DNA of 64,000 nucleotides, taken from contig CAJNDS010000247.1 of assembly GCA_905221605.1 (NCBI GenBank), forward strand, positions 419,138 to 483,137. The letters run 5' to 3'. Source of the DNA: Symbiodinium natans. Its lineage: Eukaryota > Sar > Dinophyceae > Suessiales > Symbiodiniaceae. The notes under the pieces were generated by a model. That model was not told the origin of the DNA and searched no databases. It saw only the letters and a program-made list of their open reading frames with translations. Positions 31,546-63,611 of the stretch are shown in pieces. The position numbers and the translations under genes were made by a program. Numbering within the stretch: position 1 is the stretch's first letter; every line of letters begins with the position of its first letter.

Positions 31546-31684
31546 ATCCTGTGTTAAACGATCTAAAAGTTGCAGGGCAACCCCATACGACATCTTAAGA
31601 GACGCCTTAAAGGTTGGAAACAACGATCTAAAAGATGCAGGACAGCCCCCCCCCCCCCCTCCCCCCCCCCTCCTCTCTGCTGGT

Positions 31685-31752
31685 CCCGAAACCAAAAACA
31701 GCTGCAAGTTAAATACAATTTGTTTAACTTGCAGCTGTTTTTGGTTTTGGGG
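31685..31752. repeat. Perfect 22-bp-stem hairpin in right arm
   Basis: Stem CCAAAAACAGCTGCAAGTTAAA pairs with its exact complement across a loop of about 8 nt. It is the homologue of the left-arm hairpin at 28575-28641, and extruded DNA or transcribed RNA would fold strongly here. Just outside it, long C runs (31646-31668) correspond to the G runs at 28654-28672 in the left arm. Confidence 0.93.
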
Positions 31753-32239
31753 CCACCAAACGCCACTTTGTTACGGAGTGTTTCGGGTCAAAATTTTCCA
31801 AAACCACCCAAAAACGTCCTAAGCCCCTCAACCCTAAACCCTAGACCCTAAACCGTAAATTTTGTGGGGTCCTCAAGATGTGCAAGGATGGAGGGCCTTG
31901 AATGCCTAGTTCTCCCGCCCAACATAGAGCACTCTCGCCCGCAGTCAGAGTTTTGGCTGCTAAGGTAGTTTTCTTGTTAGGGTTTAGTGTTTCCTGTAGG
32001 GTTCGACAGTGAAGCTGGCGCCTGGAGCATTGGCGGAAAGTGTCTTTTGATAACACGAGAACAGCGTGTGCAGGGCGTATCCTTGCATTAAGGGGCTGGT
32101 AGATGTCGTACGGGGCCATCCTGCATCTTTTAGATCGTGGGTTTTACAGCGCTAAGTTTATAGGGCCACAAAACAATCTAGCCTTTCAAGGCGTTACTCA
32201 TTTCCTCAACGCAACCTCAGAACCCTTAAACCCTTAAAG

Positions 32240-42669: not shown

Positions 42670-44880
42670 TTGTCATTCCACAACACGAGTGGTTTTGGAG
42701 CAGGCTGCAGGCATCAGAGTCCCAACAAATTCACCCCAGAAAACAACGACATGTTCAAATCATAGTAAGCTACAAACAGTAGTGAACAGCAATAGCAACA
42801 TTACTAATACTAATATGTACAGCCTCAAAAAGAAACATGATTTGAGAGCCCATCGCTCTCAAAAAGCCCTTCCCGGTTCCCGTGCTAATGCCTGCTATTG
42901 CCTGCTCAATACTCTGAGAGTGGTTCTTGATTTTGCATTGTATCACAGGAGTATTTGCAGAGTTCAGCCGCCAGACGAAGAATAGGATTATGCGCTGATT
43001 GCGCTGGCGCCATTGTTCTCTTCGACCGTGCACTTTGCATTGTGAATGAACTGTGACAGTTACGGATCTCTGGTGGGAACTCTCTTGGCAAGCCCCGATG
43101 CATCGTGTCCCTTTGGTAATCCGGCAGTATCCCTCCGCATTTAAAATTCTCTGCGCCTCATGAAGGTTGCCGGGATTGGAGGAAACTAAGGGCTTGGTCC
43201 TGAGTTTCCTTTAGTAACCTTGAGTTTTTGTCGCCGTTTTCGGGCTTCAAGATGATCTCATTTGTCATTTGTTACATGAATAGACCTTCTAGGGCTATAT
43301 CTTGACTAACTAGACATGGGTTCCCCCACCTTGGAAATGGAAGAATTGAACTGTGTTGGTTCACAGCGGATACCCACTTGCCCAGTTCAGCTCTGCGATG
43401 TGCAAGGCCCGGAATTTTGGCAGAGAAGACAAGGCAACTCTGTCCTTTTTCGATGTGCAACCCTAACCCTAAGATGCAAACCTAAATTGTTGGTTGCCGC
43501 CTATGTTGTTAACCAGTTGCATTAGTCAAAATGACCTTCAACTGTGTCAATCGCAATCGTTACATTTGATACCAAATGAAGTTGGAGGACCTAATATGAT
43601 GAAGAGTGTTGATTCATATGTTTAGATGACTGAAGCTCATATGTAAGTTAAAGGCCAATGGGTTATGAAACGCCAGTTACTACAATGCGTTTGTCAAACA
43701 TATGCTGCTTTGTATTCACATACTTCTCCCCCGACACATCCTAGCAAAAAGGTGTTGCTTACCTTTAGGCACAAAAAAACATGTCATTTATGCGAACAAA
43801 CACGTGTTTGTTTTTAATATACATCGCCACGCCAGTAGGTCGAGGGGGGGAGGTATATTTGCATATACATGTAATGGAATATTCACAGGCTGTTGGTTCG
43901 AATTGAAAGACGCTGCTTGAGGTAAAGTTTGCATTGCCTCACATTTTGTATGGGCATCGCATATGAAGCAGGGTATATATTTCTGTTTTTGATGACTGTA
44001 TATAAGGTTCCTTTTTAATATTGGTGAGTGTATATACTGGGTGTCCTTTTGGGGGTACAAGACATATGGCCCTTCCTTAGTAGCAACGGCTAGCTGGTCT
44101 ACTTCGGCCAAGGAAAGTTAAAGATTTGAGAACCGTTTCGGAATCTGCTGGGTTGATTGTGAGTGTGTGTGTGTGTGTGTTTTTTGTTCTGGCGGGTTCA
44201 TCTGAGTCACAGCACCAAGTTGTACAAGCAGGTTGCGGTCAAGCTCAGTCTTATTCTAACCAGGCACAGGGTTGCCACAAGGCGAGGGAGTGGAAGGCAG
44301 TGGAAGGTCAACCCATAGGGTGTGCCATGATATGCAGCATGCACATTTGACATCATTTGCAATGTGCCAAATATGTAGTGCTAGCAGAAAATGTCATGAG
44401 TTGGGATGCAACTTCTCAACTGGGTTCCGCGAAGTGCTTGCCTTTGTGTGCAAACTGCTTGATGGCTATGCGGCGTCCTTGCTGGGCTCAAACGGTCCAG
44501 GTACCACAGCTCATGCAATGCCTGGTACCCCATTTCCTGCGGTGCAAGTCGTCTCAGTTTAGGAGCGGCTGATCGAGACAAATCAAGCTTTTGTTCTAAA
44601 ATTCCAACAGAACATGGCGCAGCTAGGGGGCCCATCGTCGGTTTTTAGATGCTGTTCCAAACCACATCTCAATGACTGAATGTCGGCAACCAACAGGCAT
44701 TGGATCAACTGTGTTTGCTTGTCGTAGTAACCATGGTGGCGACATCAGCTGCAGCATACGATCTGGCCAAGAAGTTGTGCCAAGAATATGACAAGCGGAA
44801 GAAGGCAACGACATGGCTCGTCACATGAGCTTTTGCAGTCTTCTTCTTCTTCTGCTGCTGAAGTTAGTTGTCGTCTTTGC
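42670..44880. other. No convincing gene
   Basis: Moderately AT-rich around 43500-44080, with short frames only. A (TG)n microsatellite lies at 44159-44180. Confidence 0.35.
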
Positions 44881-44883
44881 CAG

Positions 44884-44944
44884 GAGGAAAAAGAGATGAA
44901 TGTCAAACAGGAAGCCAACCTGGTGCCCAGCGCGAGCAAGACAG
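44884..44944 (+). CDS. Small exon, charged, unknown gene
   Basis: A CCAG acceptor and a GTGAAA donor flank 20 codons reading EEKEMNVKQEANLVPSASKT plus one base. Charge and lack of stops support an exon, but 61 nt is short. It may belong to a gene ending at 45399. Confidence 0.35.
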
Positions 44945-45178
44945 GTGAAATTAGTCAGAAGCTGAGAAACAGGGAAGGGCTAGTCACAATGTGAACTGAC
45001 AGCCGCGGCTTTGAAAATTAGTTTTCGAACTTATCGTGAGAAACTCCGAATGATGCCCTGGACCGTTTCGGGTTGAGGGTGCTATGCAGTATGAAATTGG
45101 GATTCTGGTGTATGGTTGCCGGCCCCTTGTGGGTCTGTTGTTTCTTTGGCAGGTTGTTGACACGGGACACGGAACATC

Positions 45179-45399
45179 ATGGAACAACCCTTTTCTCTGT
45201 CTCCGCCTGTGCAAAAGAAGCCCACTCCTCATGAACTTGTTGTAGCTGCCTCTCAAGCTGGACCGGATTGTTTTGTAAACCGCAAGGTCGCAAAGTGACC
45301 GAGATTGACTACGGGAAGCATGAACAAACTGTCAAGGAGCTTGACCGCCAAGAGCGAGAGCAAGAATACGCACGCTACTTTGCACAAATGTTCGCATAG
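45179..45399 (+). CDS. Terminal exon(s), C-terminus of a TPR-type co-chaperone?
   Basis: A first piece from an ATG at 45179 reads MEQPFSLSPPVQKKPTPHEL and on to about 45275. A second, in another frame, reads TEIDYGKHEQTVKELDRQER and EQEYARYFAQMFA to the stop at 45397-45399. The final charged helix ending in MFA resembles the C-termini of TPR immunophilins such as cyclophilin-40-type proteins. That family link is inference. The frame change between the pieces is unexplained, by indel or unusual splicing. If real, a TPR-type gene ends just 0.5 kb ahead of the next TPR gene. Confidence 0.3.
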
Positions 45400-45870
45400 C
45401 TGTACGGATGGTTGGATGTTGGTTTGTTGGTGAATGGTTGGCACTAGTCAGGCTTGTCGGCCTTAGCTGCCATTTCTTCATTGCATTGTTCCTCAAGGCA
45501 TGCCTGTGTGCATGTTGTTTTTGATGTGGTGGGCCAAGGAAAGGCGACTGAAGCAGCCCAATGGTGCACATTGGACCATGAACATGGACCCAACTGCAAG
45601 AGGTGGGAGGGTAGGAGTAGAGAAATCTTTGTAGCCCAAACAGGCCGGGAGACTAAGTCACCAATTCATTCAATGCTGCCAGCTGCGCATGAACCTGGTA
45701 TGCGTTCCCATGGCAGGCCCCCAACGAGCTGCTCGCAGGACCACCAGAAGGAGTGGCAGCCGCCCGACCAGTTGGTTGAGTTTCAGAGGTGCGATAAGAT
45801 GGTCAGAACAAATCATCCTGAAATGGAATTGAAGCTGCAAGCAGGAAACGTTTGGGAGTCTTCAAGTTAG

Positions 45871-47862
45871 GCGAACTGAGGATCTACGAGCGGAGCACCG
45901 AGGAGAAAATTGCAGCAGCTGAACGCTTCCGCCAAGAAGGCAACGAAGCATACAGTCCCTCGACTTCAGTTTTGCGGGGCAGGCTGTGGATTCGCGTGGA
46001 CCATCTGAACCGAGGAAAGCGCAACTTTGGCCTGGCAGCTGTCCACTACCGCAAGGCCCTCCTACACTTCGACTACACTTTTGCAGAGACCGAGGACCGG
46101 GGCGACCTGTGACGAATGTGGACTGGGAAGGTGCTCTTCTACTCCGTCCATTTTTTAGCCAGCCATTGAAGAGTAACGTGGCGCATACGCATGTTGTCTT
46201 CGATAGCTTGTTCTTTCGGTTTGCCTGTGTACTGGCTGCCGCTGCCATTGGAGAGGATGTCTAACTCCATTGACAACCTGTCATGACTGTAAGAACCAAG
46301 TCAAGCCATAGGCACCCTTGATAGAACTTGATTTTTGGGCAGGGGGTTGTTTTCGTTTTCAAACTGGGTGGTTTCCCGACCCCCATACATTGAAATGCCG
46401 GGGGCGCATTTTTGACATCTGAATGGCTTCACGGCCCCATAGATAGAATATGGGTGCGGGGGAGGGTTGTACATGCCATGCATTTTGATGCCTTCCGGGC
46501 GAGGTGCATTTTCAGAAGGATTGGCAGCTTGCTGGTAGTTGCACTTTCGCTTGCAACTCATCTTCTATCTATGGTGTCCACCCTAATGCTGCCCAACTCG
46601 CCCCAGCCCGGTGGGGGGGGGGGGGGATGCACAAAAGGACCGATTTTACAAGCAAAGGTCCTTTTGGAAAGGCATCTTCAGGGGGGCTACCCAATGCTGG
46701 ACCCAACTCGCCTCGGTGCGGCCTGGAAGAAATTGGGTGGGGGGGGGGGAAATCATGGGGAATTCCGCGTAAGCCAAACGCTCCTTCTGGAAAGGCATCT
46801 TCAGGGTCTCACATAAGATGCAAATGATGGTACACAAGCTCTTTCGGCGGCCGAACTCATAGATAGAATATCAGAATATTGCATATTCGAGGTATGGGTT
46901 TGGACATACCCAAGGTATATTCTATCTGTGGCTTGAGGTTGGGGGGTATATATATATATATATATATATTTCGAAACCTCCGAGATTCTATCTCCTTGAG
47001 TCGTAGCCAAATGCTGCAGCACATCTGGTGCAGGAGTTGCAAAATCAGGCAGGAGGGACGTGAGTCAAACAGCCGTGAGAAGGGCCCAGGGCTGGAAGCA
47101 GTTTGTTGCTTTTGACCTCTGCGGAGGGCTTCATTTTTTTGACGATGCAGGTCGATGCTGTGAAGCTGCCATGTCTGCTGAACCTGGCAGCCTGCAAGTG
47201 CCAGCAGGCGAGGGCAAGAGCCGGCAACACAGTTTGAGAGGTGTGTGGAAGCGTGGCTTACTGGCGCATTACGGTACGGCGTGCCACAGGCAAGCACATG
47301 GTAAAGCTTACATTGTCCTGCGTCAGGGTGTGCCTCGCAGGAGGACTGGGACGAGGTGCTCACACAGTGTCGGCAGGCGCTCGAGATCAATCCTCGCGCC
47401 GCGCAGCACAGATTTTAAAAGTTCCGAAATGTTCAGAGTTTTTGGAGTTTGTGGGAGGTTGTGAGACTTTGAGAGCCCGACTGACACGTGTCACAAGCAT
47501 TGTCCTTGCGACCTTGTGTTGAAAGTTGCAGGTTGAGTGGCATGAGCACACATGAGGCTGTCAAGGCGCATTACCGTGTCGGCCTTGCCTACTTGGCCAG
47601 AGACGAATTTGAGCTCGCAAAGGCCTGGTTTGAAGGGCTGTTGCTTGTGGGAGGACGTGTGCCTTTCTATCGTGGATTCTGGGTCGCAATTGTAAGCAAG
47701 TCATGGCCATCTTGGCTGCGAAACCTCCGGTGTAAGGACGCGCTCACCAGTGCTCACGAGATCGAGCCCTCAAATGCTGACATTGTAGCTGCACTGAAGC
47801 AGCTGAAGAAGAACATGGAGGACTACAAGACACGTCGGCGCAACTTGACTCAAAGAGGGTAG
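45871..47862 (+). CDS. TPR-repeat protein (immunophilin/co-chaperone type)
   Basis: Six exons on plus: 45871-45954, 46015-about 46094, 47151-47207, 47341-47397, 47557-47636 and 47751-47862. They read RSTEEKIAAAERFRQEGNEA, YRKRNFGLAAVHYRKALLHF, KLPCLLNLAACKCQQ, EDWDEVLTQCRQALEINPR, AVKAHYRVGLAYLARDEFEL and AHEIEPSNADIVAALKQLKK, giving three TPR units. The first intron is 60 nt, GT-AG, phase 1. Introns after 47207, 47397 and 47636 need GC donors, and with them the third TPR is exactly 34 residues. The exit of exon 2 is unsettled (a GA donor or a missed exon). The layout resembles the C-terminal TPR domain of FKBP-type immunophilins, which bind Hsp90/Hsp70 tails, but no FKBP domain was found upstream. 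Confidence 0.72.
46609..46625 (+). repeat. Poly-G run inside a TPR-gene intron
   Basis: An uninterrupted G run in the long intron between TPR exons. A second G run lies at 46738-46749. The two are followed by a similar block (AGGCATCTTCAGGG, at about 46670 and 46792), indicating an intronic duplication of about 120 bp. Confidence 0.85.
46947..46970. repeat. (TA)n microsatellite
   Basis: An AT dinucleotide run in the long TPR-gene intron. Confidence 0.9.
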
Positions 47863-48005
47863 AACGCAGCCGCAGCACATTCTAACGTGTGTGATCTGGG
47901 CGACTCTCTGAATGTCCTAGGAGACGTGGCGAAAGAGATGCTTTCAGGCAAGGGCGATGAAGCTGCAGAATCTGCTGGAAAGCAGGCGCAAGTGTTGAGT
48001 CAGGG
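47863..48005 (+). other. In-frame continuation after the TPR stop
   Basis: After the TAG at 47860-47862 the same frame stays open for about 55 codons and reads like protein (LGDSLNVLGDVAKEMLSGKG, then DEAAESAGKQAQVLSQ). Either it is 3' UTR that is open by chance, the TAG is a mutation, or the TAG lies in an intron with a GT donor at 47860. Confidence 0.3.
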
Positions 48006-51068: not shown

Positions 51069-51167
51069 GCGGACCATCGAGGAGTCACGAGCTGCAGCGC
51101 GCGGCTGGCATGACAGGTCGGGGCCCTTGCAGCTGGTAGACCACGTGCCAGGACACGTTCGTTCCGT
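51069..51167 (+). CDS. Internal exon with GTAAG donor, unknown
   Basis: A GCGCAG acceptor, then RTIEESRAAARGWHDRSGPL and QLVDHVPGHVRS, and a GTAAG donor at 51168. The splice signals on both sides and the residue pattern are convincing. No family recognised. Confidence 0.42.
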
Positions 51168-51395
51168 GTAAGCTACGCGTGCCAGCGACATTCCAGAATG
51201 TTTTTGCTGCTCCCTAGTGCTTCAAAGCCCGGGGGAAGCTAGCCGGCGCTTCAAGCTGACTCGAGCTTGTTAAGGTGACATTTTCAGAAAATGCGTGCAT
51301 ACTCAGGAAGTGGCCTGATGGTGAAGTCCCGGACAAGATAAAAAAGCCGCAGCCTAAAGACTCAAATTGCATGGGCAATCGGTTTTTCTCATGGC

Positions 51396-51737
51396 GTGAT
51401 AGGACACGCGACAGTTAGAGTCACCTGCATGTCCTGCAATTTTGCTCCCTTCCTTGCTTACTGGCATGAGCAACATGCAGACGAGAGACGGCTCTTTGCG
51501 GGTTTTTGCGTGACCCAAGTCCTGAAGTTGATTGACTCATGCGACGCGAGACCATGCATCCTCAGTCTCAACACAACTTGTTTTGATGTCTTGGAGCCTG
51601 AGGATAGCAGGATGGAAGCGTGCCATGAAGGACTGGAATCATTGCCATTCTCCAGCGCCAGCGCGCCTCTCTCTCCGGGCGGCATCCGCAAGCTTCATTC
51701 AACTCGCATGGGGGGTCATGTGCGTGTTCATCCTTGA
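51396..51737 (+). CDS. Coding-like open frame, 113 codons
   Basis: A plus frame reads MSCNFAPFLAYWHEQHADER, RLFAGFCVTQVLKLIDSCDA, then ILSLNTTCFDVLEPEDSRME and LPFSSASAPLSPGG. It is evenly composed, with hydrophobic periodicity, and it is followed 10 bp downstream by the exon at 51747. Unknown function. Confidence 0.35.
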   Translation: MIGHATVRVTCMSCNFAPFLAYWHEQHADERRLFAGFCVTQVLKLIDSCDARPCILSLNTTCFDVLEPEDSRMEACHEGLESLPFSSASAPLSPGGIRKLHSTRMGGHVRVHP

Positions 51738-51746
51738 TGTTCGCAG

Positions 51747-51854
51747 GACTTCATGAACCAAGATCCCAAGTTGAACGACCTGGTCGCCTTGCGGGGGCCC
51801 TTGCCTCCTCCCTGCGTGCCCCCATCGCGCCTCATGTTTGCTAGGCCCATCTGA
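51747..51854 (+). CDS. Coding-like exon, unknown
   Basis: After a TTCGCAG acceptor: DFMNQDPKLNDLVALRGPLP, then PPCVPPSRLMFARPI to a stop at 51852-51854, which may lie beyond a donor. It is likely a separate exon of the same gene as its plus-strand neighbours. Confidence 0.4.
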   Translation, partial: DFMNQDPKLNDLVALRGPLPPPCVPPSRLMFARPI

Positions 51855-51883
51855 GCTCTGTTCCGAAATCCTCATCCTGGCAC

Positions 51884-51980
51884 ATGGCGAGGTTCACGCA
51901 GAAGTTTGTGCAGCTCGGGCAGAGCCGGAACTTCACTCTCAGCACGTTGATGGAGCGCCAGAGTTCGCTTGAAGCCTTGT
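51884..51980 (+). CDS. Coding-like exon, unknown
   Basis: The plus frame MARFTQKFVQLGQSRNFTLS, TLMERQSSLEA is protein-like. It is then lost in a C/A-rich low-complexity tract (52030-52092). The Met at 51884 might be a start, or the exon may begin earlier. Confidence 0.35.
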
Positions 51981-52029
51981 GTTGTGGACTTGGGGATGGA
52001 TTGGGATGGTTTCTTGGGAACCCCTTCTC

Positions 52030-52092
52030 TCACACCCCCCCACCCCCACCCCACCCCACCCCTCCCCCCCACCCCCGCCCCCCACCCCCCCA
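52030..52092. repeat. C-rich (CCCCA)n low-complexity tract
   Basis: A run of ACCCCC and CCCCACC units, in intron position between coding-like exons. Confidence 0.9.
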
Positions 52093-52303
52093 ATTGGGAA
52101 CTTCTGCTTGTCCCGAATGTTCTGAGACTCAGAATGGCATCCCTCAGTTCCAGGACATGGCCTGGACCGTTCTGATCCTCACTTGGGAGGCATGTGCTCG
52201 TGGCTGCCCTAAATTAGGGTCACCTTTTTTCGGGTCCGTTTAAACAGGGCCCAATATAGGGACCTAAGTTTAGAGAACTGCTCATATGCTTGTTCGGAAC
52301 CAG

Positions 52304-52414
52304 AGCCTTTATTCTGCGGAGGCGGTGGTGAACGAGAAGCTCCCCGTCATGGATGAGGTTGAGCGAGGCTTCAAAGAGAAGTACGAGGACACACGGTCTG
52401 AGGCATCACAGATT
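52304..52414 (+). CDS. Charged helical exon, unknown
   Basis: From a CCAG acceptor to a GTTAGT donor, 37 codons: SLYSAEAVVNEKLPVMDEVE, then RGFKEKYEDTRSEASQI. It is a strongly amphipathic, coiled-coil-like segment. It may start the coiled-coil gene whose later exons lie at 54-63 kb. Confidence 0.45.
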
Positions 52415-52472
52415 GTTAGTTTAAGCTGGCTACATCACGTACACAATCTTGGACTGGAGTCATGAACTGGAG

Positions 52473-52580
52473 GATCTGATGAAGACACTGATGGAATGCC
52501 GGAGGCACCGCAACGGTTGGTGAAGCTGTGCACGTTCATTGCAGAGAGGTGGCGGGAGGTGTTCAGAAGTGAAAATTCTA
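52473..52580 (+). CDS. Coding-like exon, unknown
   Basis: A plus frame reads SDEDTDGMPEAPQRLVKLCT, then FIAERWREVFRSEN. An overlapping frame (HELEDLMKTLMECRRHRN) is also helix-like upstream, so the exact exon edge is uncertain. Confidence 0.35.
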
Positions 52581-52767: not shown

Positions 52768-53421
52768 ATGGCCCTCTCTTTGCGATTCCTGTCTCAAGCC
52801 TCCAAGAACATCGTGGCTCATGCACCATCGCCCAAGGCTGTGCGCACTCCCATCACACCAAAGACTCCCAAGACGCCAAGATCACCCCAGTCGCCTTTGA
52901 GTCCTTTGACTACGGCATGCTCTGGGTTGAGCTTCTTCCCAGCTGAGGAGGTCAAGCGAGTTCCCAAGAGTGGCACGGCACGGCAGCGTTCCGTCCACTT
53001 CGCTGACTCGGAAAGCAAAACTACTTGGGTTGGCAATGCGACCAGCCTGCTCAGCACACAGAGGGTCGGGGCCCTCATGGGGAACTCATTGCTTGGCGGA
53101 TTCCAACCCCAGCTACGTGTCCAAGCTGCAAACACAACCCTGCCGGACAGCCTCAGCGAGGAGGATGCCATGACATTGGCTACGGCCACACGAGCAGCGG
53201 TGTTGGCGCGTCAGGCGCGACAGGAAGATCGCTGCGTGCCAACTCCGCGCGTCTCGCTGGAGCCGACCTTTCCGGTGCTGCTCGGCCGACAGCCCAAGGT
53301 AGGCCCACCCTTACGAAGTTTCCCGGTGGATGAAGAGTCCTGTGCGCATGCTGCACGCCAAGCTTTCCTGGAGCAGCAGGAGCGCAGGGCCAGCCGAGCA
53401 ATGGTGAACTTCGTAGTGTGA
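52768..53421 (+). CDS. 217-residue protein with [S/T]P cluster and PP1-docking-like motif
   Basis: An intact single-exon frame from an ATG in CCATGG context to a stop at 53419-53421. Residues 21-46 hold about seven to eight Ser/Thr-Pro pairs (SPKAVRTPITPKTPKTPRSP), typical proline-directed kinase sites. Residues 74-78 (RSVHF) fit the RVxF consensus for docking to protein phosphatase 1, set in a basic then acidic context (ARQRSVHFADSES). Two Ala/Arg-rich helices follow (about 155-172 and 191-212). No globular domain recognised. A PP1 regulatory or targeting role is an inference from a short motif that also occurs by chance. It is the best single open frame in the window by composition. Confidence 0.62.
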   Translation: MALSLRFLSQASKNIVAHAPSPKAVRTPITPKTPKTPRSPQSPLSPLTTACSGLSFFPAEEVKRVPKSGTARQRSVHFADSESKTTWVGNATSLLSTQRVGALMGNSLLGGFQPQLRVQAANTTLPDSLSEEDAMTLATATRAAVLARQARQEDRCVPTPRVSLEPTFPVLLGRQPKVGPPLRSFPVDEESCAHAARQAFLEQQERRASRAMVNFVV

Positions 53422-53997: not shown

Positions 53998-54039
53998 AGG
54001 CAGTACCTCTCAGAGGTCGCCGAGCTTCGGGAGCTCTGG
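53998..54039 (+). CDS. Coiled-coil mini-exon
   Basis: From a CTGCAG acceptor to a GTTCAG donor, 14 codons: RQYLSEVAELRELW. It shows clear heptad-like Leu/Val spacing. Probably an exon of the coiled-coil gene. Confidence 0.45.
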
Positions 54040-54200
54040 GTTCAGGGGGCCGCCCTCTGGGGGTTGCAGTCTGCTGTGTCATGTTATTTTGGAGCCACTC
54101 TGAGACCGCAAACCTTAACAACATGTCTGAGAGCGCTGCTGATCCTAAACCCTCCGGACCACCCACGGCTGTCCTAAATTTCCCCAAGCGGCAACCACCA

Positions 54201-54251
54201 GATGATGCTGAAGGACCGCATACGCAACGCCACACTGAGCCCCTCCATGCA
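54201..54251 (+). CDS. Helical mini-exon
   Basis: After a CCACCAG acceptor: MMLKDRIRNATLSPSMQ, then GCGCTG, which could be a GC donor. Short, but the composition and junctions fit the neighbouring exons. Confidence 0.35.
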
Positions 54252-54533
54252 GGCGCTGGGCTTTACAAGAGCCGCCCATTTTTTTTCCTTGTCCTCAGTT
54301 TAGGTTCCGGCTGAAAGCCTTGCCCAATAGCACAGCTCCAAAGGTTCCTGGATGAAAGCCCTGTTTGGGGTTGCGGGTTTTGGATTCAATGGCTTCAGGG
54401 TGTAGGAACTAGTGGCAATCTTGAGGCTCGAGGCGCCTTGCATTGCAGTGGGCGGAGGCTGCGCTGGCGGAAGTCTCGGACGAAGGCGATGGCGGTGATC
54501 ACGGTATCTACCGCAGCGCCCTCGATAATCTCG

Positions 54534-54665
54534 CTCTCTCTCTCCCTCTCTCTCTCTCTCTTCTCTTTTGTTGTTTTTTTCAATTGTTTTTAGTTTTTCC
54601 TGTTTCGTTCTCTTTCTTTATCTTTCTTGCTCTTTATTTATCTTTCTTGCTCTTTCTTTCTTTCA
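54534..54665. repeat. (CT)n and pyrimidine-rich tract
   Basis: A (CT)n run at 54534-54562, followed by a TTTC-rich tract ending in an AG-like acceptor (TTTCAG) at 54666. It resembles a very long polypyrimidine tract. Confidence 0.85.
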
Positions 54666-55129
54666 GAAATGAGCTTTCAAGATGCGGGTCCTCTTTGCCA
54701 GGGCATTGGAGTTGCAGAGTTCACTCAGATTCTTAGTCTTCGGCTTCGGCGCGTTTCTGTCACTACTTTCAGAATGTAGGTCTTGGGGTGTGGAAGTTCA
54801 GTTTGCTCTCGCCCACAACACCCCAAAGCCTGTATCCCCCAACATGCCAAGAAACCGCTACCCAGCACTGTTGAGCTTATTCCTCAAGCAGCCATTGCAT
54901 GATGCTACAACCCTCAGCGTTACGCACGTTACTCAAGCAGAAGCACGTCCATTTCTGACGTCAGCACTTCCAAGAACACCATTCGCAGTCCTGTGTGCCC
55001 TGAGTTTTTCTTAGTTTTGTGTGCTCCAAGCATGTGAAGGGCTCGGGCCAACCAAGCAATCCTCCTTATCTCCTGCCATTGGCGCAAAGTGCATGATGAA
55101 CTGGCATGTGAGGATTTCAGCCTGAGATA

Positions 55130-55222
55130 GCCCTCGACGAGAAGACCCGAGAGTACTTCAAGGCTGGCAAGCGCCCATGCGAGTTGTCTGCCTTACTGGG
55201 GCTTGTGGAAGTCGCGAGCTAG
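55130..55222 (+). CDS. Coding-like exon, unknown
   Basis: A plus frame reads IALDEKTREYFKAGKRPCEL, then SALLGLVEVAS to a stop. The charged first half is helix-like. It belongs to the plus-strand series. Confidence 0.3.
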   Translation, partial: ALDEKTREYFKAGKRPCELSALLGLVEVAS

Positions 55223-55494
55223 ATAACCTCTACTTGCAGCTTTGAGAGCTGGTAGCCAGCCAAGAGCACTATTGTGGTTTTGGCATCAGTTTAATGATGT
55301 GGGTATTTCCGAAAATAGGGGACCCCTTGTATACCCCCTTATACACTTTCATCCTTACTACAGGACATCCCCAAAAGCTCGGAAGCCCCCCCATGTTTGG
55401 CAGCCATATCAACGCTCCGGAGCCATAGTGGTCTCCAGCCCCAAGTCCCAAATTCAGACCGAACCAAAGAAATCCTAAAAGCAAAGCTCTAAAG

Positions 55495-56120
55495 TCAGAA
55501 GTCTGCACGAATTTGAAAGCAACATGAGCGAAAAGTACAGCAGTGCCGTCTTCCTGCACAATGCGCACGTAGTGTGGGGTGGCATTCTTTAAACGACCAT
55601 AGGCCCAACGTGCGCGATAAGATGTTTTCGGCCATTGTAATCCCACAGGCAGCAATGCAAGAGAACATGAAGATCGCTCTGACGAAGGGCGCGCAGCCAA
55701 GACTCTGGCTGTCTGGAGCATTGTAGCACGCAAGTTCTGCTAGGTATGCGTGTGCAGCAGAAGCCGCATAAGCACATTCTTCTTTCGTCATGGTAGGTGT
55801 GGGAAGGCCTAGACGGTGGATCTGTGTCTGTGCGGGTGCTACTTTCAGCGTCCTCGCATCAGGCGCCGCGGCCGCTGGTGAGACGATGCGACCTGACCGT
55901 TCTTTAAAGGGTTTGGGCGCCAGGGTGCTTTCGAGTAGAAGCAGAACGAGCTGTTGAGGGTGTAGTGCAAGGCCGTGCCAGGAAGATTGAAAGTGGGTGT
56001 GCTTTCCTGAAATGCAGTCTTTGTCTGGCCTTGGGCAGTTTTACATGCGTGCAAAACCTTCCACACGACACATTCCACGAGCAGCATGCAAGGGCAGCTA
56101 GCGTCACTGAAGACCTTCAC
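55495..56120 (-). CDS. Possible minus-strand gene inside the plus block
   Basis: Two minus frames of good composition: 55791-55495 (MTKEECAYAASAAHAYLAEL, then FVRAIFMFSCIAACGITMAE) and 56120-55845 (MKVFSDASCPCMLLVECVVW). Both begin with Met. A plus frame over the second (55965-56162) is also protein-like, so the strand call is weak. If real, it would interrupt the otherwise plus-strand series. Confidence 0.25.
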
Positions 56121-56380
56121 AGTTCTGAAGGCGGCATCGTTGACCGCAGTGGCGGGGCATAAGGAGTAGGGATGTCAGAGCCCAAGCCCTTGGCTGAGGG
56201 GTAGGTTTGCTTACTTCGCCCGTAAGTACCCTCGCCTGTATGTACCCTGAGCTCGTAGCAAGCCGTATACAGGCACGGGCCCTGTGTAGACCCTCAAACG
56301 GTCACCTTCCCCGAGGGGCCAACACACAGGTCCTTAGCCAGACCCAAGCCCCTCGAACATCATCTGCCCGGGCCAGACAG

Positions 56381-59300
56381 CTACTCATGGCCCAGCTGAA
56401 CGATGCCCAAAGCGAGTCCCGAACTGAGCCTTCATATTGTCGAGGGCGTGGTAGAACGGTATGAGTGCTTGCAGAGTCTGGGCTTGAACTCAACGGGTGT
56501 CTTCATCTTCAAGTTCCTTAGGACAGGCGCCCAGTGCAGGCCGCATTTCGGAACGCCACAGAAAACCTGAGGCTGGAGAAGCTCAGAGAGCAGCTTGTGC
56601 CGGCCCAAGAGAGAGTTGACGACATCTTGAACCTCCGCCAATTTGGGGTCCCTTCTGCTTGAAGGCGCTTTTGAAGGCAATTCTAATCCTTTCTGGGCAT
56701 GCAAGGATTTCCATCTTCAGGAAGCTCATACAGTCCTGACAGGGAGTGCTGGCTTCCATGAGCCATTGTAGCACGGCTGACATCTGAAACGCCCGCCAAG
56801 GAAGCTGCTCTGCTGCAGGCGCAGCTCAGTGAGGGCATGGAAAAGCGACCGCCGCCGCCGAGGCACGCGTGGAATACTGCCATACGCCCTACAATCCCTT
56901 GATTCTGAGCACTCTTGCACGGCTACGTGTCCGAAAGCCCCTGGCATTGTAGCGGCATAACTACACAAGCTCTCTTCCTTTGCCTTTGATCCGCTGGCAC
57001 GACAGAGTAGCTGTGAAACCATGCCCGATTCCTAGAAGGCCCGGCCGCTTTATGGCGGTTTACGAAAATAGGGGGACCCCTATGGACCCCTAATAGAGAT
57101 CCTCAAATGATAGGATCCCCCTTACTTGATAGGATCCCCTTACTTGTGGGGCCCTACACATCCCACACACCCGCTTTATCACCCTGCCAAGTCCTCAAAA
57201 CCCCCCCACCCCATATGGCGAGGAAGGTGTCTGTGGTGGACACGTCCTCCCAGGAGCAAGTACGGGGCCATGGCTTTGCTTACGTTCTGTTGTGCTCTCC
57301 GGCGGTGGTGGGGGGTGGGGAGGTTTTGGGTAAACCATGGCTCTTTGATTTCTGTGTTGAGATTGTCCTGCGAGCTTTGACTCTGCTAGCTGGTAGGGAG
57401 GCGGTGTAGCCGTAGCGGAAAACGTTCGCTCGCCCCAACTTGGTCTGTACACTGGCAGAACCTTCAGATCTACATTCGCCCATCTTTGTTGTCCAATGCC
57501 CTTTCAAGTAACCAACCGTCAAACCTTCACACCATGAGCCCTTCACCTTCCTAAACTAAACGCGAAGTCCAGAGTCAACAATCTAACCTCCAACAGTCAT
57601 CAACCCCGAACCCGTAGAAACTCTGCTCAGCCGGAACACTAGTTTACGGAAGATGCTTTTCAGTATTCGCTTGAGCGGAAGTTGAGCGTCTGCGATACAA
57701 GCCTTGTACTGTCGTGAACCAGAAAAGTTCCTAGCACGCGTTTCCTGTGTTCGGTCCTCCTCAGGCCAAAAAAGCAGAATCTGTACATCCTGAAATGTAA
57801 AACAAGAGATAGCACAATAGGCCATAAAGTATGATGTATGGCTTACACTACATCACAAAGGGGCACAGAACGAACAACAAAAATGTAGTACAACCGGGGT
57901 AATTAAGTACAATCTACTTTTAATTCTCATTAGAGAACCACTGACTAAGTCCCTCCAAGATACCCTAAACCCTAAACCCTAAACCCTAAACCCTAAACCC
58001 TAAACCCTAAACCCTAAACCCTAAACCCTAAACCCTAAACCCCAAACACTACTTCCTAAACCCTCCCAAAGCCATTTTGGCGAGGCAAAGAAACTCCAGG
58101 CAGAGTTAGACGCCCTGCGCTCCGAGCTCGGCCCTTGGAAAGGCTTGGTCTCAAGCTTCGGAAAGGGGAAATTAGGGGAATTAGGGTGTAGGGTTTAGGG
58201 TTTAGGGTTTAGGGTTGACGGTGTAGGGTTTATAGGGTTAAATCAAGGGCAGTCGTAGGACGCTTTGAGGTTAGATTCCACCGGGTGACAGGCCGAAGAA
58301 TGCTGTGAGCCCTGCTTAAGCTCCGAACGAAGCACGGTCCTCCGTCTCGATTCCCACAAAGACCAGCTGCTTAAACCCTAAACCCTAAACCCTAAACCCT
58401 AAACCCTAAACCCTAAACCCTAAACCCTAAACCCTAAACCCTAAACCCTAAACCCTAAACCCTAAACCCTAAACCAGCCTCAAACATACCCAAGGTTCGA
58501 AGCCGCGAAGCAGGACTCCGAGAGGCATCGTGGCATCCTCCAGGCGAGGCGCTTGTGCTTGTGCCCCTCTGAGGTTCCAGTCGAAGCCGGTTTAGGGGTT
58601 ATTAATAATAATGATAATAATAATAGTAAAAAGAGTCATAATAGTAATAGTAGTAATATTATTAATCATAGTAAAAATGATAATAATAATAACAATAATA
58701 ACAATAAGAATATTGTAGAACTCGGACTCGCTCTGCACCTTCCCCGCCGCTGCATGGAATTGGTCTCTCGGGCTCCGGAGAGACAAGCCCCACTTTCTCT
58801 TTTGGCCGCAGCAATGCTTTGCTCACGAATCCCTCATCCTGAGCCTGAGAGGCCGCAGACACCCTAAACCCTAAACCCGAAACCCTAAACCCCAAACCCT
58901 AAACCCTAAACCCTAAACCCGAAACCCCAAAGCCCAAACCCTAAACCCTAAACCCTGTCATGCAGAGCCTGCGGCATCCTGCAAGGTGTTCGGCCTCGAT
59001 GCCAATGCTTCCCTTGACGATGCCAGGACATTCTCTCGATCGATCGTGCGGATTTGGGAGCTTTCGGGGGATGTTGGGGCAACTTTTCGTGTCCTCCACT
59101 TTGGTTGCTCCCGGAACCTGAAAACTTCATGGTTCGTCCGGATGCTTGGGGGGGCCTGGGCTTGACACTGTGGGCCAGTTCCTGCAATCGTGGGGAGTGC
59201 CCTGCGGAAGAGAGGCTGCAGTGAACTGCAGTGTAACAGGGGACTGCAAGAAGGGAGTCTGACTTTCAGAGCTGACCACACGCCTTGTCTCTACATCTCT

Positions 59301-62300
59301 GCGCCGTGAAGCCCTGAACGAAGGAAGCTCTGGGACTCCCTGAACACACCGGTGGACGACTGGTCTGAGGAGGCTCAGAAAGTTTCTTGGGGCTCTGGAA
59401 TTCTGGGGTCTGACTGAAAGGCTTGTCGACTTAGGCTTCTTGGTACTCTTGGGTTTTGAGTTGAATGCAGATCCTTTTTTTCTGGCCGGTCCTGTGCGAC
59501 GTCCGCGAGGACTGCTGAAAAGATTGGGCTCTGAGGAGTGAGTTCTCCTGCAGGGCCTGCTGGAGCGTGAGCCACGACTCGCCATGACTCGCCTGGTCAT
59601 TCGAGAGGAAGACTCACTTCCCACTCACACGGGACAGGGAAATGGCAAGGTCAACAATGAGGGGGCCTCGATGCATGTTTCCCACCGCAGCCTGCACTGG
59701 GCTTGTTGGCTGATGGCTGGCCATTGCAACTCAGGTCGTGATGCTATGTGAGGTGCGACATAGAGGTGGGAACTCAGGCTGTGCTTCCAAAGCACATGTA
59801 AGTTTTGTAAAGAGGTATGGCCAGACTCTCTGGACTCCTGCTCCCTATACCAGCCCTGTATTATGATTCTTGCCTGCCTCGCGTGCCAAACGCCGCCACC
59901 CCCCACACCTCTCTGAGCACGGCGTCGTGGCATTCCTTCCGCACGGCGGCTCATGGGATTGACCGTGGCAGCCATCTCTGCCTGCACCGTGCATTCTTCT
60001 CATGTCATCGCGCCCTTGATGACTCAGCCCTGCATAGACTTCGACTGCAGCCTGACCAGCCGATTCCAAGATTGATCACTGTGGAAACCAATGCTTTTCA
60101 GTTATGTGGATTGGATGAGCTCTCATGAGCCTTCACCCACGTCACCCAAAACAGAAGGTTGAATGGTGAGGGATCGGTTAAGTTTAACATCCCATAACGC
60201 ATGGCTTCATGGCTTTTATAAGGGGCTTGGCTACGAAAAAAGTGGCCGACCGCAGCAGATTGCAGAGGTTCCCAATTTCATCGCAGAAGGTGCGTGATGA
60301 AACCTCTGCAGAATTTAAGTGGTGTGGGTACGAGGTCGGCAGAGAACATCTGAAGACACTGCTCCCTGTGTAGTTCCCGAATATTCCCTAATGTTCCGTT
60401 ACATGCCCAGGTGCAGAAGCTACGCGAGAAGAACAAGACCCTGCGGCAACAGTCGAAGACGCTGGAGGAGGAGCTAGCAGAGTCCGGAACCCAGCTTGGA
60501 GGTTTCGGATTTCTTTCTGCTCATGAGACAGGGGGCTTAGATGACATCTGACATCTTTGCTTCTGGTATTGGGGCAACTCAGCTAATTGTTTGGTCTGTG
60601 GAGGTTTGCCATGATTGTAAATGTTGGCCGCAGCTGTGTGTCCTCCTCTCGCTTTAGGGTCTCACTATGCACGCCCGGAGCCCAGATGCTAAGCGAACCC
60701 CAAGCCCGGAGCCCTAAGCCCGAAGCCCGAAGCCTTAAAACCCTAAGCCCCAAACCCAACTGCTTCGACTCCTCTGAGGTTGAAGAAGAAGAACCACGAG
60801 GAACTCTGCCGGAAGCTCCAAGGCCAAGTCACCGCGCGAGCCACAGAGTTGGCTTGCGGGCTGCGGCGGTTGACTGCCGTTCGGGCTTTCCGGACCTTTA
60901 GGGTTTGGGGGCTTGGGGGTTTAGGGTTTAGGGTTTAGGGTTTAGGGTTCCCCTAACCCCCAAGGACAGAAAGCTACAAGCTGGATCCTGGAGTACAGCG
61001 ACAGCACTGGACAAGAAATGTTGTTTTGTAAAGAGGGTACCATCAGTTTCCGAAATAAGCCACCTCAAAGCATGCGGGTGTCCTCGAATTCTTGACCCAG
61101 TCCTCGGATCCCCCAAATCAGCATTTCCGGCCGCGGTTCCCCCCCCCCATGTCTTCTTAAACGCTGCCGTCACCGTAGCTGCACGGCCAAGGACCTGCAA
61201 GCAGAGGTCGAGAAACTCAAGAGCCCCAGCTGCAAGAGACGCTACTCGCGCGGCTAGTCAGGTCCGGGAGGCTTTCGGAAGCGCTTAGAATGTAAAGCAG
61301 TCGTTAAGCTCTGAACCCTGGCAGGTTGTACGGGCTGAGGGAGGGCTTAGGGTACATTTCGCAGGCGGCCAGGACGGCAAGCCGTCGGAATCGGCCGTGT
61401 GTACGATTAGCACGCACCGAAAAAGAACCCTGCACTAGGCCTGTCTACATCCACGACTTCAGACTCCACGGCTCTCCGCACCGAGTGAAACCTCCCAAGC
61501 CACGGGTCCCAAATCGGCCGGTTCCGAGGCAGCAGCTGGCCACCAAGAACATCCCATCGAAGGGCCGGGGCACCTGTGGGGTGACCGTGTTGCCGTTTAA
61601 ACTTCTTGGTACTGGAGCGTCGAGGGCCGCAGAGCTTGTTAAGAGGCGCTGCGCCCCGAGGCGATGAGAAAGAGGACATGGAAGCGCTGAAGAGGCCCAA
61701 GGGACAAGGGAGGTCTCAGGTTGTGAGGCAAGTTGCATGGTTTGAGGCAGGCTTTGATGCTCCGAGGGTAGCTCGCCTCCTTCACAGGCTTCAACTTCCG
61801 TGATTGCTCAGTTGCGCACAGGAAGGCTGAATGGGCTTCATTGGGCTTCAGTGCATGATGGCGCAAGGACTTGTACTGTCATTCTGCAGCGTGCACTCAG
61901 CAAATCGCAGGCAGCTGGCATTGTTGAAGAAGCAGGTCGAATCCCAGGGCAAGGGCGACGCCCACGGCCCAGCCTGAAACCCCCTTGCATCCTTTGCCAT
62001 TGACTTCGAAGCCTCAGCGGGTAGCCTGTGAGCCGTCGAAGTGCTCCGAGTGCGTGCCTCTGCAATGTTCTTGGTTTGCACCTGCGAAAACGAAAAGCGA
62101 AGACTCGGACTTCGTATTTTCCGTCAGATGCTCTCTCCGGACTTCATGTTTTGAGCATTAGCAGGATTCGGGGGATGTGGGCTTCAGCTCCCAGGCCATG
62201 AAGGACCTGATGAAGCAGAACGAAGCGCTGGACGGGCTTTGTTTAGGGTAGGGAGACCTCCAGGCATCGTTTGCCCGCTTTGCAGACCCCACCACCGAAA

Positions 62301-63411
62301 TCTGAGAACCTGCAGTTGGGCGTGCCGGGCTGAGACTTATCTGGAACCTTGTTGGCGGAAGTTAGTTTAGGAGGGCTTGGAATTTAGGGTACTTTTTTTG
62401 GGGGTTGGGCCCTGAGCCTTGACGCTCCCCCCCGAGCCAGGAGTCGGAGCTCGCGAAGCTGAAGCAGCAGCTGTCGGAGAAGGTGGCGGAGGTCCAGGAG
62501 ACAACCAAGGCCATGGACTGGGGTTATGGGTGTTCGGAAACTTCAGGGGTTCTTCAGCTGCGGGTTTTCTGTAGGGATGCGCGTCGGGGTAGGCCCAATT
62601 GTGGTTGACAAAAACCCTCAACCGTAAATGTGCGGCGAGGGCAAATCTCGGCAGGCAATCGGCTTCAGTTTAGGATTTTAGGGTTGGCGTTTATACGGTT
62701 TTATGGGCTTTGGGGTTTTGGGGTTTTGGGTCAAGAATTTGGGGGCTTGGGCTTGGCTCAAGGCTTACAGGGTCGGTGGTGAACCCTCATGTTGGCATCT
62801 GAACTGCCAGGCAGCGGAGACGGCGAGGAGAGCGATTCAGGGTTGTGTTTTTTCTTCTCGGGGGTATGCTTACTTTTTCCGGTAGCTGAGCTGTATTTTG
62901 TTTTAAACTGTTGGGTTGTTAATTTTGTATATGATATCTGAATACAACAAGTCTCATTCTCATCGAAGGTGAACCGAACATGTCAGAAGATTCCTCCGCT
63001 CCTGGATGCTGAGCTCTGGCCCTTGTTTATTGCATGGCTTTCAACGCCAGCAGAAGTTGCGCGGCTCGACGCTTCCCAGGAGGCAGTCTACGGACCTCAT
63101 GAGCCAGATGGAGCTCATGCGAAAGGAGCTCGAGCGAGCCAAGAAGGACTCGAGTTGGATAGGGTTCCAGCCGTAAACCCAAGAGCCCAATGCCTAAACT
63201 TCAAAGAACAGTGCCTTGCTCACCACAAGATCGCACATGTTTGGAACTTGTAACCCTGAACCCGAAACCCGAAACCCTAAAGCCCTAAAGCCTAAAGCCT
63301 AAACCCTAAACCCTAAACCATAAAGCCTAAAGCCCTAAACCCCAAAGCTGTAAACCCCCCCCTAAAACCCTAAACAAGCTTGAACAGGACCTGGCCGAGG
63401 AGCGCCGCCTC
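56381..63411 (+). CDS. Multi-exon coiled-coil protein gene with telomere-like repeats in its introns
   Basis: At least 13 short plus-strand exons show heptad spacing of Leu/Ile/Val with many Glu, Lys and Gln: 56381-56427, 56540-56647, 56801-56850, 58085-58130, 58333-58368, 58514-58543, 60411-60501, 60779-60851, 61192-61221, 61911-61948, 62195-62235, 62441-62522, 62811-62841, 63080-63163 and 63379-63411. Examples are ENLRLEKLREQLVPAQERVD, VQKLREKNKTLRQQSKTLEE, ESELAKLKQQLSEKVAEVQE and LMSQMELMRKELERAKKDSS. Most have AG acceptors and GT or GC donors. Not all neighbouring phases match, so exons are missing or edges are off by a few bases. It is probably a long cytoskeletal, tethering or structural protein. 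No globular domain or known family was recognised, and it could be more than one gene. Confidence 0.55.
56540..56647 (+). CDS. Coiled-coil exon, 36 codons
   Basis: From a GTGCAG acceptor to a GTCCCT donor, in phase 0 at both ends: AAFRNATENLRLEKLREQLV, then PAQERVDDILNLRQFG. This is the longest clean exon of the coiled-coil series. Confidence 0.55.
57963..58044 (-). repeat. Near-perfect (CCCTAAA)n array, about 11 copies
   Basis: Eleven or so uninterrupted CCCTAAA heptamers (TTTAGGG on minus), ending 41 bp before the coiled-coil exon at 58085. The homogeneity contrasts with the degenerate arrays at 28-31 kb and suggests recent expansion. Confidence 0.97.
58190..58250 (+). repeat. Short TTTAGGG array, opposite orientation
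   Basis: Three perfect TTTAGGG units plus degenerate ones (TGTAGGG, TTATAGGG) just downstream of the 58085 exon, facing the array on its other side. The exon thus sits inside an inverted pair of telomere-like arrays. Confidence 0.93.
58373..58474 (-). repeat. Perfect (CCCTAAA)n array, about 14 copies
   Basis: The longest perfect heptamer array in the window. It begins directly after the coiled-coil exon at 58333-58368, within a few bases of the putative donor. Confidence 0.97.
58514..58543 (+). CDS. 30-nt micro-exon with GC donor
   Basis: A GAAGCAG acceptor, ten codons DSERHRGILQ, then GCGAGG, the same donor hexamer used after the TPR exon at 47151-47207. Very short, but the shared donor motif and helical composition support it. 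Confidence 0.4.
58597..58712. repeat. (AAT)n-type trinucleotide tract
   Basis: AAT and GATAAT units with scattered substitutions over about 115 bp. Confidence 0.92.
58861..58955 (-). repeat. (CCCTAAA)n array with variants
   Basis: About 13 heptamers, including CCCGAAA and CCCCAAA variants. It lies directly before a plus-strand coding-like segment. Confidence 0.95.
58956..59165 (+). CDS. Coding-like exon, unknown
   Basis: A plus frame reads SCKVFGLDANASLDDARTFS, RSIVRIWELSGDVGATFRVL and HFGCSRNLKTSWFVRMLGGA to a stop at about 59163. It is well composed but not coiled-coil, so it is either a globular part of the same protein or another gene. Confidence 0.33.
   Translation, partial: CHAEPAASCKVFGLDANASLDDARTFSRSIVRIWELSGDVGATFRVLHFGCSRNLKTSWFVRMLGGAWA
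59170..60410. other. No convincing gene
   Basis: Overlapping frames on both strands (59127-59624 minus, Ser/Arg/Pro-rich; 59817-60128 plus) without clear preference. Likely a long intron or spacer between coiled-coil exons. Confidence 0.25.
60411..60501 (+). CDS. Coiled-coil exon, 30 codons
   Basis: From a GCCCAG acceptor to a GT donor: VQKLREKNKTLRQQSKTLEE, then ELAESGTQLG. Textbook coiled-coil composition. With the exon at 62441 it is the most convincing member of the series. Confidence 0.6.
60904..60950 (+). repeat. TTTAGGG array in a coiled-coil-gene intron
   Basis: About six heptamers, the last four perfect, in the intron between the exons at 60779 and 61192. Confidence 0.95.
62441..62522 (+). 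CDS. Coiled-coil exon, 27 codons
   Basis: From a CGAGCCAG acceptor to a GTTATG donor: ESELAKLKQQLSEKVAEVQE, then TTKAMDW. Clear heptads. The flanking introns carry degenerate TTTAGGG and GGTTTTGG tracts. Confidence 0.6.
63247..63377 (-). repeat. CCCTAAA-type array, degenerate, abutting an exon
   Basis: Units such as CCCGAAA, CCCTAAAG, GCCTAAA and CCCTAAA run up to the AG acceptor of the coiled-coil exon at 63379. The acceptor itself lies in TAAACAAG, which suggests the repeat supplies sequence at the 3' splice site. Confidence 0.93.
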
Positions 63412-63461
63412 GGACTCAGCGCTTCCCTCCCCAAATGAAGGCTTACGGTTTAGATTTGATG

Positions 63462-63492
63462 AGTATATAGGGTTTAGGGTTTAGGGTTTAGG
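63462..63492 (+). repeat. TTTAGGG array, about four copies
   Basis: Short perfect array, opposite in orientation to the one at 63247-63377. The two flank the last coiled-coil exon. Confidence 0.95.
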
Positions 63493-63611
63493 ATTGAGAA
63501 TCATGCCCCTGAGCCCTGAAGGTTCAGGGTTTCGGGTTTGAGGGCTCATCAGAGGGTTTCCCCCCAAAAGTAGGGGTACCCATTTCTTGGGGTCCCACAC
63601 TAAGGGTTCTA

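Follow-up and report, generated by a model that had tools for sequence, protein, structure and literature searches.

Short internal arrays of telomere-type repeats, known as interstitial telomeric sequences (ITSs), have been described in human and horse, where they are found in introns and are absent from exons; in human, 31% of them are intronic and none exonic, a distribution compatible with random insertion (PMC7215372). In dinoflagellates, TTTAGGG is the telomere unit (PMC11453091), and the excerpted passages of dinoflagellate papers that contain it concern telomeres. Here, we describe arrays of TTTAGGG (G-type) and of its complement CCCTAAA (C-type) in the Symbiodinium natans genome assembly (G000; 759,417,921 bases, 2,543 contigs), in particular in a stretch of 64,000 nucleotides (nt), C247:419138-483137, hereafter termed the window, which contains a coiled-coil gene with very small exons. 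In array-bearing genes, namely this one and dynein genes, exons are bracketed in the order CCCTAAA, exon, TTTAGGG. Like the ITSs of human and horse, the arrays are short, internal, located in introns, and absent from exons; in contrast to those of human, they are far more abundant and are tied to splice sites in both position and strand. Dinoflagellate introners, as presented in the abstracts and excerpts of studies on Amoebophrya (PMC7789003) and Prorocentrum (PMC10666404) and of a survey (PMC9860276), likewise have complementary, foldable intron ends, but here none of 12 introns had inverted repeats of at least 8 nt at its ends, and the dynein loci compared do not have newly created introns. 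G-quadruplex and G-run motifs (PMC9065059, PMC5778605) are similarly G-rich, more frequent on the non-template strand, and enriched near 5' splice sites, whereas the repeats studied here form a telomere-type tandem array with its complement before the 3' splice site. Plant telo boxes (PMC3022908) are also internal telomere motifs with a preferred position in genes, being enriched in 5' regions and first introns; unlike here, splicing is not mentioned in the excerpt of that report. Intronic ITSs, inverted repeats of introners, and splice-site G-quadruplexes are thus known pieces, and we found no report of a splice-site-tied polarity of telomere-type repeats. Telomere-type repeats at intron ends were not described in the titles and abstract beginnings of the literature searched, which lay mostly outside subscription journals.

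The coiled-coil gene was proposed in an initial annotation as a chain of about 15 exons of 30-108 nt at 56381-63411. A coiled-coil-like exon chain on the + strand at 53-64 kb scored 47.8, compared with 15.0 on the reverse strand and a mean of 6.1 (maximum, 16.3) in 60 Markov shuffles. This composition score is unspecific, reaching 71.7 on the minus strand at 1-11 kb, partly from low-complexity Glu runs, and 40.4 at 42-53 kb; since other parts of the window score high by composition, homology was needed to establish the gene. Two full-length relatives, the 994-residue S. microadriaticum hypothetical protein AK812_SmicGene34292 (P0122) and a 1,021-residue EukProt entry (P0121), were 49-50% identical to a rough joined-exon model, and the splice sites of the gene were predicted by spliced alignment to these two proteins. 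The alignment with P0122 scored 2068, versus 623 on the reverse strand and 596-666 in 8 shuffles, and the final model was identical to P0122 at 457 of 556 residues, its tiny-exon part at 296 of 355 (83%) without a stop codon. Both relatives define the same 25 exons at 54000-63420, of 17-71 nt (mean, 43); with eight further exons upstream, the 33 exons counted average 43.4 nt (17-71), and the 31 introns have a median length of 241 nt. Four weaker pieces upstream of 51069 were excluded from this count. Judged by its conservation at the sequence level, the coiled-coil gene is a real gene, and the tiny exons of the initial annotation stood, although the interval 56381-63411 is overlapped by 19 exons of 17-71 nt instead of the number and sizes proposed. 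The exon placed at 58085-58130 is real as 58085-58125, and that at 63379-63411 is probably real but shifted to 63388-63420, the weakest match (5 of 11 residues identical); the one placed at 58333-58368 is not an exon, because 58085-58125 joins 58495-58543 directly in both orthologs. The perfect CCCTAAA arrays of 11 and 14 copies that had been noticed exist at 57963-58039 and 58376-58473, with more C- and G-type blocks up to 63.5 kb, and the arrays do lie in introns and close to exons.

The donors of the gene are GC (17), GA (9), and GT (5). AG/G acceptors were found at 30 of 31 introns with a scoring that favored them and at 23 of 27 with neutral scoring, in comparison with 29% of all AG dinucleotides at 53-64 kb. 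These donors and mostly AG/G acceptors fit dinoflagellate spliceosomal introns, for which Table 2 of PMC10666404 provided the reference values. According to the same table, mean exon lengths are 98.7-239.9 bp in six of seven columns and 578.7 bp in the seventh, with 8-17 exons per gene; thus, many short exons are ordinary in dinoflagellates, and the 43-nt mean of this gene is unusually low.

Before the homology-based exons were known, array blocks of roughly 50 nt and above were listed by hand. With these hand limits, each of the five CCCTAAA blocks that reach 20 nt ends shortly before a 3' splice site, at distances of 20, 19, 29, 21, and 12 nt (Table 1), an arrangement attained in 3 of 200,000 random placements (p = 3e-5 when each block was shuffled within its own intron). 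With mechanical limits, the five distances are 38, 21, 33, 24, and 13 nt, and 6 of 100,000 random placements equaled them. C- and G-type blocks shorter than 20 nt and the G block 63523-63544 were left out of the hand-limit test and included in the mechanical retest. The bias on the TTTAGGG side was not significant in this gene alone. Earlier placement tests on composition-based exons (single criteria, p of 0.0001-0.011; threshold-free sum, p of 0.005) are superseded by these results. The relation between arrays and splice sites proposed initially is therefore nonrandom in placement tests, and it was confirmed on independent exons of the dynein family.

A hidden Markov model (HMM) of the dynein AAA_6 domain (PF12774) gave 53 hits, from which 11 with long matches or open frames were dropped, leaving 42 exons on 14 contigs; the test began with 24 exons and then took in all 42 short ones, with 150-nt flanks being scored. 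The upstream flanks contained 94 CCCTAAA and 6 TTTAGGG copies, the downstream flanks 10 CCCTAAA and 72 TTTAGGG copies. The expected orientation alone was present on 23 exon sides and the opposite alone on 3 (p = 8.8e-5, with exons of the same gene not being independent). Arrays were present in the flanks on 6 of the 14 contigs, and on each of these the expected orientation was in the majority. Beside some dynein exons, TTTAGGG starts within a few bases of the HMM hit, and of three exons in one dynein stretch (L177), two occupy C-to-G gaps and the third is flanked by C blocks on both sides. The homology-based evidence for the polarity comes from this one protein family and the one coiled-coil gene.

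Eighteen 10-kb stretches (L139-L156), sampled systematically at the same coordinates from every 30th contig between C10 and C520, that is, from the first fifth of the contig list, showed a corresponding arrangement. Gaps from CCCTAAA to TTTAGGG cluster at 60-150 nt (48 of 76), a range into which 15 of 76 G-to-C gaps fall. The C-to-G spacers are almost all distinct (1 similar pair among 59) and more coding-like than G-to-C spacers (p = 4e-5), all other spacers (p = 1.5e-7), and array-free DNA (p = 1.6e-9). The coding score was derived from the codon use of the window gene, a small model (1,728 nt of coding sequence), to which dynein exons were added for segments called de novo. When coding segments were called regardless of arrays at a threshold of 12, the order C-exon-G was found 10 times and G-exon-C once. 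A strand test inside C-to-G intervals is uninformative because the arrangement reads the same on both strands, and degenerate repeats confound AGG profiles taken around the ends of arrays.

Heptamer arrays are a genome-wide phenomenon and not peculiar to the coiled-coil gene. The 21-mer (CCCTAAA)3 has 1,184,385 forward and 1,185,204 reverse matches in the assembly, about 2.37 million with overlaps counted, versus 33 and 41 for a reversed control 21-mer. Perfect runs of at least three copies cover 6,097 of 195,000 bases in 20 stretches and occur at least once in 14 of the 18 sampled stretches away from the window; extrapolation from the sample gives about 700,000 such runs in the genome. The window itself is array-poor by this measure, with 30 of these 21-mers compared with about 200 expected per 64 kb. 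Its 76 exact heptamer runs are held by two clusters, at 28.3-31.9 kb and 57.9-63.9 kb, apart from three single exact heptamers elsewhere. Situated at about 477-483 kb inside a contig of 1,035,246 bp, the arrays are tandem and non-terminal, as ITSs are.

The explanation that we put forward, at about even confidence, is that telomeric repeats inserted in existing introns and were retained in the orientation compatible with splicing. Interstitial repeats would have been repeatedly inserted or expanded in introns, for example in the course of break repair, and would persist mainly where orientation and position suit splicing. A C-type array, lacking G and hence GT, GC, GA, and AG, would supply a C-rich tract and CTAAAC before the acceptor; a G-type array would supply G-runs after a degenerate GC, GA, or GT donor; and in an intron carrying both types, the two ends could pair into a long hairpin. 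Since heptamer-free introns of the coiled-coil gene are also G-rich at the 5' end and C-rich at the 3' end, the arrays probably act as, or at least replace, this intron-end composition. In the 19 strictly heptamer-free introns, GGG occurs at 39.5 per kb at 5' ends versus 13.2 at 3' ends, and CCC at 17.1 versus 28.9. The arrangement of the arrays may mark or influence where RNA is spliced, a function that we infer from the observed pattern, and a positive role might lie in providing splice-site landmarks or intron-end stems.

Selection could also have acted in a purely negative way, with arrays inserting anywhere, being purged from exons, and owing their polarity only to purifying selection against cryptic splice sites. 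TTTAGGG contains AG/GG and GGGTTT and CCCTAAA neither, C-type arrays being free of donor and acceptor dinucleotides, and the distribution of human ITSs given above agrees with such a neutral load. This would explain the avoidance of 3' intron ends by G-type arrays but not the rarity of C-type arrays after 5' splice sites (10 C-type versus 72 G-type copies beside the dynein exons), and we consider it improbable.

The strongest rival to retention for splicing invokes break healing, in which an intronic double-strand break has both its 3' ends extended by telomerase, acquires TTTAGGG on the left side and CCCTAAA on the right one, and is then rejoined, with no role in splicing. The same polarity would arise mechanically, exons would resemble telomere-capped fragments, and the strand of the gene would be irrelevant; in line with this, the polarity is symmetric under reverse complement, and mammalian ITSs are documented to insert at double-strand breaks (PMC7215372, in excerpt). 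Both dynein introns bounded by HMM-hit exons on either side (C1971:273742-274925 and C1812:1167090-1168813) read G blocks and then C blocks with one switch, as break healing would have it, and the switch falls at different relative places, early in one intron and late in the other. At other places in L177, a C zone includes a small G block, and one intron begins with C blocks. Break healing predicts no closeness to exons, whereas the five C blocks of the window adjoin 3' splice sites; moreover, in one intron on C1812, G blocks are spread over some 1.4 kb with other sequence in between, where repeated events should have left C partners. We regard this explanation as rather unlikely.

At the dynein loci compared, the arrays are younger than the introns. 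Intron positions in array-loaded and array-free loci, read by eye, coincide at four places: an acceptor before A-(L/M)-(H/G) is found in loaded C1971, C1812, and C96 and in unloaded C1757 and C1852; one before V-G-x-F in loaded C1971 and C96 and unloaded C1757; one before V-F in loaded C1812 and unloaded C1899; and one before WGCFDEF in loaded C96 and unloaded C1757. Splice positions common to loaded and array-free loci imply that the arrays colonized existing introns. This bears on the proposal of the initial annotation that the heptamer may spread in the manner of introners, and on a rival reading in which the introns are made by a mobile element family whose terminal inverted repeats are telomere-like. 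Inverted repeats are known from both ends of dinoflagellate introners (PMC7789003 and PMC10666404, in excerpt), a layout with G at the 5' end and C at the 3' end is that of an inverted repeat, and 6 similar pairs, which may be degenerate heptamers or shared intron elements, were found among 35 G-to-C spacers of the sample. Together with the single pair among the 59 C-to-G spacers, this amounts to a low but nonzero level of sequence sharing between spacers. However, with array-free dynein loci sharing their positions, these introns do not appear as recently gained, and a search of 12 introns (from an early exon set, with 12 nt added on the donor side) for perfect inverted repeats of 8-20 nt lying no more than 30 nt from both ends found none. 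In addition, the direct repeats at 54-64 kb are heptamers, simple repeats, and short families, and the sequence adjacent to splice sites is, by eye, unconserved between introns. Introner-like spreading is thus unsupported, and we think it quite unlikely to account for the arrays. Nor was this gene chopped up by the repeats; in 26 of the 31 introns measured, the 3' splice site is preceded by no CCCTAAA block. As a candidate target-site duplication, a short AGGAC repeat was noticed at a single intron.

Complementary arrays on both sides of an exon could pair across it and drive exon skipping or formation of circular RNA. The flanks of three of the 25 exons, 58085-58125, 60779-60833, and 63388-63420, indeed pair far better than shuffles (z scores of -12.8, -4.7, and -7.5), with whole-segment folds at z of -9.5, -5.7, and -4.0. 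Against such an origin of the pattern, the other 22 exons show nothing of the kind (z of -2.5 to +1.6), routine skipping of conserved exons would be harmful, and pairing follows from the polarity and need not cause it; we judge it very improbable. As to pairing between the two ends of an intron, the dynein intron stretch in L177 folds end to end (z of -9.9, with approximate boundaries). An earlier end-pairing test on an incomplete exon set of the window gene found no pairing.

How splice sites are recognized in dinoflagellates with many short exons and degenerate donors is unexplained by dinucleotides alone. Extending the retention of arrays in a splicing-compatible orientation, one might suppose that telomere-type repeats serve genome-wide as strand-coded splice landmarks, CCCTAAA announcing that an exon starts ahead and TTTAGGG that an exon has ended, and that, inside an intron, the stem formed by the two unites splice sites too degenerate (GC, GA, or GT donors) to be recognized by themselves. 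We offer this as a tentative idea that may well be wrong. If true, a genome-wide strand-coded association would link the biology of telomere repeats to splicing and intron growth and would provide a simple new feature for gene prediction, and the effect of intronic telomeric repeats on splicing, a question posed in the excerpt of PMC7215372, would become directly testable.

Several observations weigh against the explanation that we put forward. Eight of the 14 dynein contigs carry no arrays in the exon flanks, which implies that the arrays are dispensable, and counter-examples to the polarity exist just upstream of C1812:1173029 (four TTTAGGG copies) and just downstream of C1971:276752 (CCCTAAA). 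In some introns, C or G blocks keep the same orientation as far as many hundreds of bases away from the splice site, more than a local splice signal would need. In the coiled-coil gene, a sixth C-type match of 14 nt lies 182 nt from the 3' splice site (5 of 6 within 40 nt, attained in 35 of 100,000 placements), and the G side is weak alone: with hand limits, the blocks begin 46, 63, 160, and 27 nt past the exon (3 of 4 within 63 nt, p of about 0.035), and with mechanical limits those of at least 20 nt lie at 54, 63, 199, 45, and 102 nt (p of about 0.06 for 3 of 5 and about 0.10 for 3 of 6). The test on coding segments called de novo is weaker at a threshold of 8 (35 versus 13). Strong end-to-end pairing was found in 1 of 24 introns of the window gene (58126-58494, z of -7.8), and intron-end pairing as a general feature of this gene was rejected. 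The heptamers may, as the initial annotation suggested, supply splice-site sequence: the CCCTAAA blocks sit at branch-site distance. CTAA, though, occurs twice in 960 nt of 3' ends of array-free introns versus 6 times in 5,993 nt (2 in 760 versus 5 in 4,033 in a retest). With no clear enrichment there, the heptamer as a branch-site consensus is unsupported.

The features of the gene and its arrays are compiled in Table 1. At the 5' end the two orthologs differ, P0121 matching small exons at 51069-52504 and P0122 a 650-nt exon, both being joined at 54000, which suggests alternative promoters or first exons. Similarity to the AK812_SmicGene34292 family holds over the available length, with the C-terminal part lying beyond the window: P0122 extends about 430 residues past the last window exon, the 5 kb directly after the window (C247:483138-488137) read as N and cut the gene, and alignment beyond this N stretch was not convincing. 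No Pfam entry scored above its curated cut-off for the model, P0121, or P0122, and no PDB match to the coiled-coil protein was obtained at E 0.01. P0121 bears a precomputed PF28159.1 assignment, a domain that the Pfam profile search did not return.

Table 1. Exons of the coiled-coil gene and neighboring array blocks (window coordinates)
Feature	Position	Strand	Evidence or distance
Eight upstream exons, alternative N-terminus	51069-51116, 51307-51345, 51603-51630, 51747-51790, 51892-51952, 52154-52189, 52322-52387, 52473-52504	+	P0121 spliced alignment
First exon, S. microadriaticum-like form, ATG at 52768	52768-53417	+	P0122 spliced alignment
Ten tiny exons without nearby arrays	54000-54030, 54214-54252, 54458-54512, 55113-55162, 55649-55688, 55863-55887, 56377-56415, 56572-56596, 56801-56862, 57223-57259	+	P0121 and P0122 agree
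CCCTAAA block, 11 perfect copies (57963-58039), then degenerate	57963-58064	+	Ends 20 nt 5' of 3' splice site 58085 (38 nt mechanically)
Exon AKKLQAELDALRS	58085-58125	+	11/13 residues identical to P0122
TTTAGGG block	58172-58239	+	Begins 46 nt past 5' splice site
CCCTAAA block, 14 perfect copies (58376-58473)	58372-58475	+	Ends 19 nt 5' of 3' splice site 58495
Exon FEAAKQDSERHRGILQ	58495-58543	+	12/16 residues identical to P0122
CCCTAAA block	58861-58956	+	Ends 29 nt 5' of 3' splice site 58986
Exon VFGLDANASLDDA	58986-59026	+	10/13 residues identical to P0122
Two exons	59324-59372, 60411-60481	+	Spliced alignment
Degenerate CCCTAAA-like block	60694-60757	+	Ends 21 nt 5' of 3' splice site 60779
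Exon LKKKNHEELCRKLQGQVT	60779-60833	+	13/18 residues identical to P0122
TTTAGGG block	60897-60949	+	Begins 63 nt past 5' splice site
Eight exons	61192-61220, 61529-61563, 61661-61694, 61911-61959, 62195-62230, 62441-62509, 62811-62827, 63080-63146	+	Spliced alignment
Short degenerate C-type match, 14 nt	62615-62628	+	182 nt 5' of next 3' splice site; exception, outside the five-block count
Degenerate TTTAGGG-like block	62670-62730	+	160 nt past 5' splice site; exception
CCCTAAA block	63252-63375	+	Ends 12 nt 5' of 3' splice site 63388
Last window exon with homology (DLAEERRLGLS)	63388-63420	+	Weakest match, 5/11 residues
TTTAGGG block	63448-63495	+	Begins 27 nt past exon 63388-63420
Second G-type block, 22 nt	63523-63544	+	+102 from exon 63388-63420

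Just 5' of the exon at 58085, positions 58070-58081 read AGCCATTTTGGC, identical to 12 nt of the dinoflagellate spliced leader, a match that may be due to chance. The second heptamer cluster of the window, at 28310-31859, consists partly of degenerate 14-mers (CCTAGGCCCTAAAC), in which C- and G-type arrays directly abut as palindromes and no gene was identified. TTTAGGG-type arrays of 4-15 copies were also seen in nine IMG/VR viral stretches, and (CCCTAAA)4 is present in many contigs of Pedobacter, Chryseobacterium, and other bacteria among the matches listed in a prokaryote pattern scan. A retroelement-like frame at 14978-15634 on the minus strand has 309 relatives at E of at most 0.001, the two that are named among the 120 listed being from Symbiodinium. 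No relative of this frame was found at the at least 128 loci from the viral and prokaryote heptamer-pattern scans, and a direct scan of viral sequences for it gave no match. Rfam and tRNA scans of the whole window were empty. Further candidate chains of small exons were indicated by composition at 10589-14075 on the minus strand and at 44563-48004 on the + strand, near a weak TPR match at 47485-47859.

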